Positions 54,883 through 60,237 of a stretch of DNA of 64,000 nt are shown piece by piece; the stretch's first letter is position 1, and every line of letters starts with the position of its first letter. The position numbers and the translations under genes were made by a program. Under the pieces are notes generated by a model. That model searched no databases. It was not told the DNA's origin and was given only the letters and a program-made list of their open reading frames with translations. Origin of the DNA: Methanoregulaceae archaeon (GTDB lineage: Archaea > Halobacteriota > Methanomicrobia > Methanomicrobiales > Methanospirillaceae); NCBI GenBank assembly GCA_015660965.1, contig JACTVG010000001.1, forward strand, positions 186,001 through 250,000, given 5' to 3'.

Positions 54883-56031
54883 CTATTTTGTGTTCTTATT
54901 TTTTACAGTAAACGTTTCAAGAATCGAAGAGGTGATTCTAACACCGAGATTCGGTTGGATCGATTCAAGCCACAGGAAGAAACCAACCTTGGGGGGCGTC
55001 GGACGCTCATACTTGAAATGTCCGTCTTTTAGCTGAACCATTTTCAAGTACTCCTTTTTCTGCCGTGATCTAAGGTATATAATCAATTCGTAACCTGGTA
55101 AATCAGTAGCGATTATTGCTTTTGAGTAGTGTTGTGCAAAGTCTGAAAACTCAATTCTTTTTCCTTTCACAAAGAGTCCGTAAATATCACAAAGAATTTT
55201 TATTGCTTGTGGATAGAGTGCCCCATAAAGAACTTTTTTAACAAGTGGATCTGTGAATTTGGTTGATGGTAAATGATGTTCCTGAGCTTTGTTAGTAATG
55301 CGGGAGAAGATCTGATTTTTTACTTGGTCATGAAATCTCTTGTAATCGAATGGTTTTTTAAACAAAAGATCGGTTGCTGAAATTAATTTGTTGTGTTTTT
55401 CCGGTCGTGTATACAGGATACGTGGCCGATAATGTTTGACCAACTTTTTAATCTGCTCACATGAGCTCGTGAATATAATCGCGTTCTCCTTGGCTTTTGC
55501 TAGTCGTTTGACGACTGAGTAATTTGAAATATCAAATGATGAGATTAGAAGGAATGGTACGGTTTTTTGGTCATAGAGATAGCCCAAAAGCGTTTTTTTG
55601 TATTGGACCTCTTGCTCGAATTCCTTTAGATCAGATGGAGATGTGACAACTTCAGCAAATCCGATCTCGTTGTTACTGGTAACAAGTAAAAGGTCAAACT
55701 CAGCAAGATCTTGACCGTTACCGCGAATCACAATATCGCCATATTTAGAGTAAAGAATTCCATTCTGCCCAAGTTGAGCAAGCTTCTGGTTCTTTGGGGC
55801 ATCGGCACCTTTACGAGCGAGGTATTTTATTCGATCGGATTTTTGGGAGATCTCCAGAAACATCTCATAAATGATTGCTTCAAACCATCTCCCCTCAGCA
55901 GTTCGCATGGGTTCGATATCCGGGGAAAAAAGTTTCTTTCGTTCGATTCTATTCATATGTCGAGTAGCATTAAGTGCATTCGCTGCTGTGGGTTTGAAAT
56001 TTTTAAAATTGTTATTGAGCCATGGAATCAT
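54883..56031 (-). CDS. Large uncharacterised protein, PD-(D/E)XK nuclease-like
   Basis: The 382-residue protein has a possible restriction-endonuclease-like core around residues 95-150. It includes GDIVIRGNGQD, LAEFDLLLVTSN and IGFAEVVTSPSD, with Asp and Glu spaced as in D-x(n)-E-x-V/K active sites. The expected final Lys is replaced or displaced. The rest is alpha/beta with many Lys/Arg residues (KHYRPRILYTRPEKHNK) that could bind nucleic acid. I do not recognise a named family. It is divergent from the 118-residue gene at 56219. Confidence 0.7.
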   Translation of the reverse strand: MIPWLNNNFKNFKPTAANALNATRHMNRIERKKLFSPDIEPMRTAEGRWFEAIIYEMFLEISQKSDRIKYLARKGADAPKNQKLAQLGQNGILYSKYGDIVIRGNGQDLAEFDLLLVTSNNEIGFAEVVTSPSDLKEFEQEVQYKKTLLGYLYDQKTVPFLLISSFDISNYSVVKRLAKAKENAIIFTSSCEQIKKLVKHYRPRILYTRPEKHNKLISATDLLFKKPFDYKRFHDQVKNQIFSRITNKAQEHHLPSTKFTDPLVKKVLYGALYPQAIKILCDIYGLFVKGKRIEFSDFAQHYSKAIIATDLPGYELIIYLRSRQKKEYLKMVQLKDGHFKYERPTPPKVGFFLWLESIQPNLGVRITSSILETFTVKNKNTK

Positions 56032-56129
56032 GAATTACCCATAATATCCGTTTGTATAGTAGATAACAATCTGCTTTGATGCGGTTAGTTGAAGACAGAA
56101 AGGTACTATCAATAATGTTTAAATAGTTA

Positions 56130-56143
56130 GGAAATGTATTTCC
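56130..56143 (+). promoter_or_regulatory. Candidate NrpR operator (GGAA-N6-TTCC) before the 118-aa gene
   Basis: GGAAATGTATTTCC is a perfect inverted repeat and matches the GGAA-N6-TTCC pattern known for the nitrogen repressor NrpR of methanogens. It lies 5 bp after a TATA-like TTTAAAT on the plus strand, overlapping the expected start of transcription toward 56219. The same layout occurs before amtB. Confidence 0.65.
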
Positions 56144-56155
56144 ATCGTACCTATG

Positions 56156-56178
56156 CCATGTGCTATCTAGACACATGG
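56156..56178. repeat. Inverted repeat in the leader of the 118-aa gene
   Basis: CCATGTG (56156-56162) and CACATGG (56172-56178) are perfect 7-bp arms with a 9-bp spacer. In a transcript starting near 56147 they would form a hairpin about 40 nt before the ATG at 56219. Confidence 0.45.
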
Positions 56179-56218
56179 AAAGGGAGATCATGTAGCAAGA
56201 TCTGAGAGGGGAAGAAAG

Positions 56219-56575
56219 ATGGCGCAAACACAACAGGAAGGTTGTTTGATCCGTTTTATTAACAATGTGACTGATGAACCTGAGTCAGATCTCGATATGC
56301 TCTTCTTCCAATTGCAAGAATACCGTAAGTCACTTATTGGCTCCTCCTTTTACTTCATTCGGGCTGATCAACCCAGTCCAGCTCTCTGTCGCCTGATATA
56401 TGGGGGGGGAAGGTTATATTCCACAGAAATTATCGATCATGAGCAACATGGAATTTCTGATGAGGATATCGAGGAAGCAATTAAACATGATCGTGAATCA
56501 ATGAATATTCCCGGACACCACCATATTTCACCTCATATCGAAAAGAAGTTACGGGTGCTCTTCGAGTTTAAATAA
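56219..56575 (+). CDS. Uncharacterised 118-aa protein, candidate nitrogen-regulated
   Basis: The protein starts MAQTQQEGCLIRFINNVTDE. It contains LDMLFFQLQEYRKSLIGSSF and a histidine/acid-rich tail (EDIEEAIKHDRESMNIPGHH). Asp, Glu and His are abundant, no membrane segment is seen, and no family is recognised. GAGGGGAAG precedes the ATG. The NrpR-like operator at 56130-56143 and neighbouring glnK, amtB and glnA suggest a role in nitrogen starvation, but this is inference. Confidence 0.7.
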   Translation: MAQTQQEGCLIRFINNVTDEPESDLDMLFFQLQEYRKSLIGSSFYFIRADQPSPALCRLIYGGGRLYSTEIIDHEQHGISDEDIEEAIKHDRESMNIPGHHHISPHIEKKLRVLFEFK

Positions 56576-56710: not shown

Positions 56711-58256
<1,546 letters not shown>

Positions 58257-58491: not shown

Positions 58492-58603
58492 TATGCTTAT
58501 AAATATTTTGTTTTTACTCAAAATTTAAATGTGTTTTGAGGTAGAATCACAAGGATTAATATAAAAAAATATTAAATAATAATATAGATAATAAAAAAGA
58601 AAG

Positions 58604-59932: not shown

Positions 59933-60237
59933 GCCTTTTTGTTTGGATTACTTTCTACTAATTTCTTCCTAAATTGATCATGAAAATGTGGTGAGGTGAA
60001 CGACTATTTAATTGATGGAAATAAAGACAATAATTTTTTTAAGATATATTATTAAAGGCAAAATTCTTCTACCCTACATTAGTAATGTTTAAATATTGTT
60101 CGATAGAACTATTATTCCTACGTCTCTCTATCCACTTACCTGAATGCACGATCTTATTATCGAAACTTTATTGCACCGGGTATAGTGGAGTCAGATGGTT
60201 GGTGAGATCTTTGGCAACCAAAAAGAAAAGTGATCTA
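59933..60237. other. Divergent region between the two glutamine synthetase genes
   Basis: No gene is supported here; the long frame entering the second glnA from 60085 lacks protein character. A TATA-like AAATAG on the minus strand (near 60010) may serve the first glnA. GTTTAAATA (60087-60095) on the plus strand may serve the second. GTGAT lies 4 nt before the ATG at 60238. Confidence 0.5.
60105..60118 (+). promoter_or_regulatory. Possible degenerate NrpR site before the second glnA
   Basis: AGAA-CTATTA-TTCC differs by one base from GGAA-N6-TTCC and lies 10 bp after a TATA-like TTTAAAT. Weak evidence, since a single mismatch in eight fixed positions is not rare. Confidence 0.3.

Follow-up and report, generated by a model that had tools for sequence, protein, structure and literature searches.

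The window analyzed here, a 64,000-nt stretch of DNA, encodes a protein of 118 residues, p118 (56219 to 56575, + strand), which is likely, on balance, to serve the GlnK/AmtB ammonium module as an accessory under NrpR control, working with PII to regulate AmtB, a target that we infer from gene context. Upstream of the gene, a TATA box, TTTAAATA (56118 to 56125, + strand), is followed after 4 bp by GGAAATGTATTTCC (56130 to 56143, + strand), a candidate NrpR-type operator matching the GGAAN6TTCC consensus of Methanococcus maripaludis (PMC2723118). The exact match at this position had been recognized in a preliminary description of this DNA, which gave the gap to the TATA box as 5 bp rather than the 4 bp measured here. 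Directly 3' of the operator, the p118 leader carries a predicted RNA hairpin, a feature that is previously unreported and lies beyond what that description had observed.

p118 represents a conserved family limited to Methanomicrobiales

Among close relatives, dN/dS for p118 is 0.05 to 0.18, indicative of purifying selection, and the reading frame is thus genuine. A search with the single protein recovered orthologues in 30 of 101 relatives. An alignment-based search of 232 genomes of the class found them in 62. Every carrier falls within two families of Methanomicrobiales, an order that makes up a major part of the methanogens of wetlands and lakes. Sampling of the phylum (394 genomes) gave no match outside those two families. 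The single-protein scan of named GTDB contigs returned five near relatives only, and the nearest named matches are from Methanoregula sp. and an uncultured Methanomicrobiales archaeon. By these searches, p118 is a new family limited to this order.

The protein had been described as unrecognized, and so it stays: no family match was found in Pfam, NCBIfam or PHROGs, and PADLOC gave nothing solid, the best result being an E value of 0.005 for a single member out of 28. A profile search of the PDB and Foldseek runs against the PDB and BFVD likewise gave nothing solid, with all PDB matches at E 0.6 or worse. PF00543, the P-II domain, matched neither p118 nor its paralogues, which places them outside the PII family. 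In an alignment of 58 members, a variable N terminus precedes a conserved core that ends GISDxDLExAV...YxISPHIExKLRxL. The AlphaFold model comprises a helix, three strands, two short helices, a strand and a final helix (mean pLDDT, 78.5), with low confidence for residues 1 to 16; a deeper alignment moved model confidence down, not up.

p118 genes are linked to amtB and PII genes

The surroundings of p118 are as first described, with glnK, amtB, glnA and glutamate-synthase genes nearby, plus a second glnA. Convergent with p118 is glnK (56711 to 57046, - strand; PF00543), the only PII gene detected genome-wide, and beyond it lies the ammonium transporter gene amtB (57054 to 58256, - strand), assigned from its ORF and homology to relatives. 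A search for nifH in this genome gave nothing over the model cut-off, which falls among non-nitrogenase homologues and so is not decisive for the clade. With GlnK as the sole PII protein and no nifH over the cut-off here, the role of p118 cannot depend on nitrogenase. On the other side, and divergently transcribed from p118, is a gene (54883 to 56031) whose 382-aa product matched nothing in Pfam; it is 70 to 81% conserved and adjoins p118 in many relatives.

Across relatives, p118 has both PII and amtB genes no more than 5 kb away in 11 of 18 loci that are fully flanked, meaning at least 9 kb of flank (about 60%; one genome, G055, is counted twice among the 18). We estimate the probability of this clustering by chance at less than 3%. 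In about a third of these loci, p118 has no PII gene next to it; PII genes number from 0 to 7 per genome. In three genomes (G221, G006, and G197), a p118 copy devoid of its own operator ends an apparent operon of the form amtB-glnK-(PII-PII)n-p118, 12 bp past a PII gene; the scanned PII proteins of G221 and G197 match PF00543, and the operon promoter bears a half-degenerate site, TTTAAATATGTAGGAACGAATATTCTTTCC. Since these operator-less copies terminate amtB-glnK-PII operons, they support the link to GlnK and AmtB independently. The operons (L118:1087-3081, L187:5005-7998, and L188:835-4585) are themselves unusual, in that amtB-glnK is extended by divergent PII genes, a single pair or two; from the pairing and the sequences, we read the alternating pairs as NifI1/NifI2-like.

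Other arrangements were also seen. In two genomes (G062 and G038), p118 sits 3' of glnK on the same strand, at a distance of 0.4 to 0.5 kb and with no clear operator of its own, and in four (G045, G027, G015, and G049) it is solitary, without nitrogen neighbors, and retains the operator. The locus survey thus assigns to p118, in most cases, either its own operator or a seat behind amtB-glnK, with exceptions such as G031 and G023. Many relatives, including some with complete genomes, have no p118, so the protein is not essential to GlnK-AmtB control.

The preliminary description had proposed a nitrogen-starvation protein possibly acting on GlnK or AmtB. The operon-end paralogues argue for that proposal, while the specific target is a matter of interpretation: gene context suggests PII and AmtB first and glutamine synthetase second. 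Indeed, an NrpR-controlled p118 might instead act on glutamine synthetase or glutamate synthase, as sP26 of Methanosarcina mazei does on GlnA1. Genes for glutamate synthase and glnA share the p118 neighborhood in many relatives, and GlnA1 of M. mazei has small proteins and GlnK1 among its reported binding partners (PMC11957540). However, the tight, same-strand operon linkage is to amtB and PII rather than to glnA, which lies farther off in a separate transcript, and we consider a target among these enzymes unlikely.

A covarying hairpin in the p118 leader

The leader hairpin (56150 to 56184, + strand) is predicted from covariation, folding energy and a covariance model. Its inner arms are at 56156 to 56162 (CCATGTG) and 56172 to 56178 (CACATGG), with an outer CCU/GGG pairing. 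In 27 leaders from two genera, 80% of the cells are paired, versus 25 to 49% when the partner is slid by 1 to 3 columns. Double-changed cells number 43, versus 11 to 16 in the slid alignments, and the covariation score is 0.43, versus at most 0.17. The arms vary while the pairing persists, which identifies the element as structure in the RNA and not a further site on the DNA. Measured against shuffles, folding energies of the p118 leaders have a mean z of -2.5, and 24 of the 27 fall below -1. Leaders of other genera carry a short UCCAG/CUGGA hairpin, to which folding energy gives little support (mean z, -0.66).

At E < 1e-3, the covariance model, R1, matched solely upstream of p118 in the genomes searched; weaker matches elsewhere in the relatives were without convincing promoter context, and Rfam held no family matching the leader. 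The idea that the hairpin might be a general feature of nitrogen-gene leaders was dropped, as amtB leaders are without it (mean folding z, -0.1). The hairpin probably sets the stability or translation of p118 mRNA, and would then represent a possible post-transcriptional layer in archaeal nitrogen control.

The confinement of a covarying hairpin to p118 leaders can also be read in another way, with p118 as a regulator of the nitrogen response that binds nucleic acid or acts by feedback, and the hairpin of its own leader as a possible autoregulatory site. Family and fold searches, however, revealed no DNA- or RNA-binding domain of known type in the protein, and the freely varying sequence of the arms argues against sequence-specific recognition; such a regulator seems improbable.

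The p118 operator is conserved across relatives

In the window alone, the motif does not exceed chance. Bare GGAA-N6-TTCC occurs three times in the window, versus 1.6 expected, a count equaled in 18 of 100 shuffles, and genome-wide it is barely enriched, with 56 occurrences versus 42 for a reversed control. From counts such as these, proof of the site is impossible with a single genome. At p118, the site extends to GGAA-N6-TTCC-ATC (56130 to 56146), and the form GGAA-N6-TTCC-WTC occurs four times in the genome: at p118, at amtB, and at two places that lack a preceding TATA box. At the amtB-glnK promoter (- strand), the TATA box TTTATAAG (58496 to 58503) is followed by GGAATTTAACTTCC (58491 to 58478) and then TTC. 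The similar arrangement of the two promoters, noted in the preliminary description, is borne out, with the operator 4 bp 3' of the TATA box in both.

That description had also called for a scan for the 14-bp motif before orthologues, and there the motif proved conserved. In 32 of 66 orthologue copies, the exact site is present in the 250 bp ahead of the gene, versus 19 of 1,084 control tiles from the same loci; for the extended form, RGAA-N6-TKCC-WTC, the counts are 44 of the 66 promoters and 4 of 1,084 tiles. When 3,328 spaced 4+4 palindromes were compared, none occurred as often as GGAA with a 6-bp gap (32 promoters; runner-up, 15). Its position after an AT-rich TATA box is constant in the orthologue alignment. 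Operator-bearing orthologues, with varying six-base spacers, represent two families and no fewer than seven genera, these genomes being related and not independent. At some orthologues, the operator is degenerate (AGAA..TGCC) or not visible. The lack of clear enrichment of the bare motif in the window or genome alone would suit a chance motif and a p118 outside nitrogen control, but its presence in 32 to 44 of 66 orthologous promoters, versus 0.4 to 1.8% of control tiles, at a TATA-box distance fixed among orthologues makes this reading very improbable, and it was dropped.

In relatives, amtB operators have the core and the 3' TTC in common with the p118 operator, and GGAAAGAAACTTCCTTC occurs in the nifH promoter of G014, some 160 bp before the gene, as well as at a nif locus of G019. 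The regulator itself is encoded: the genome has a 316-aa NrpR homologue with a winged helix (PF08461) and an NrpR domain (PF01995, NRD), and a second gene with PF01995 alone. What is expected of an NrpR regulon member is seen here, namely the consensus in the p118 promoter, its conserved promoter-blocking placement, and an NrpR gene with both domains in the genome. Phylogenetic footprints in two families, the same extended motif at amtB and at nif genes of relatives, and the NrpR gene together strongly support NrpR-type control, as first suggested, and we regard p118 as very likely under NrpR control.

Known NrpR targets include nif, glnK-amtB, glnA, molybdate transport and an alanine symporter (PMC2723118), and also nrpA (PMC11456600). 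No exact site was found before the glnA of the window (59932). At three loci of relatives (L080:2941, L081:13154, and L084:3430), GGAACATGTCTTCC lies 3' of a TATA box just upstream of glnA. The second glnA of the window is preceded (60085 to 60110) by the TATA box TTTAAATA and then GTTCGATAGAAC, a palindrome of another kind that is similarly placed and may serve a different regulator.

Discussion

By analogy with work in Methanococcus and Methanosarcina, NrpR would bind the p118 operator, and p118 would be induced on its release. When ammonium is plentiful, NrpR on the GGAA-N6-TTCC element, between the TATA box and a transcription start expected, from the position of that box, near 56148, would block transcription. 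Under nitrogen starvation, 2-oxoglutarate would rise and NrpR, which this metabolite releases (PMC11957540), would leave, so that p118 would be made along with AmtB and GlnK from an mRNA that starts with the structured hairpin and whose stability or translation it probably affects. The protein would most likely partner PII, here GlnK, in the control of AmtB; it might, for instance, be an adaptor with whose help GlnK closes AmtB once ammonium returns.

Archaea are reported to be without the GlnD uridylylation used by bacteria to switch GlnK (PMC10714827), which raises the question of what makes archaeal GlnK shut AmtB. A single adaptor is known, sP36 of Methanosarcina, which in M. mazei brings GlnK1 to AmtB1; its homologues are reported from Methanosarcinia and Halobacteria, not from the class studied here (PMC10714827). 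Since sP36 homologues are reported outside this class, p118 could fill the sP36 role, and it offers a concrete candidate for the GlnK-AmtB adaptor in Methanomicrobiales. That p118 is a lineage-specific family of PII partners that replaces sP36 as the GlnK-AmtB switch in this order, under NrpR and a leader hairpin, is a more tentative proposal, possible but doubtful.

How does p118 compare with known systems? In the NrpR regulons of M. maripaludis and M. mazei, as here, GGAA-N6-TTCC overlaps the promoter of a nitrogen gene, an NrpR gene is present, and the same site is found at amtB-glnK. In contrast to those regulons, p118 falls outside the known targets that we found, and its promoter adds the 3' WTC and a structured leader. 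The HTH-plus-NRD gene and the NRD-only gene of this genome resemble the NrpRI/NrpRII pair of Methanosarcina. NifI1 and NifI2 come to mind because the genes just ahead of the operon copies of p118 encode PII proteins of two types in alternation; however, p118 lacks PF00543, and the PII pairs here sit in an amtB operon. Like sP26 of M. mazei, p118 is a small protein placed in methanogen nitrogen metabolism, but sP26 has 23 residues and binds GlnA1, whereas p118 is linked to PII and amtB genes. With sP36, p118 would share the character of a small protein tied to GlnK and AmtB, in its case by gene linkage and with nitrogen-limited expression expected, although sP36 is under 70 residues, versus 118 for p118, and has its reported homologues in Methanosarcinia and Halobacteria, not in this lineage.
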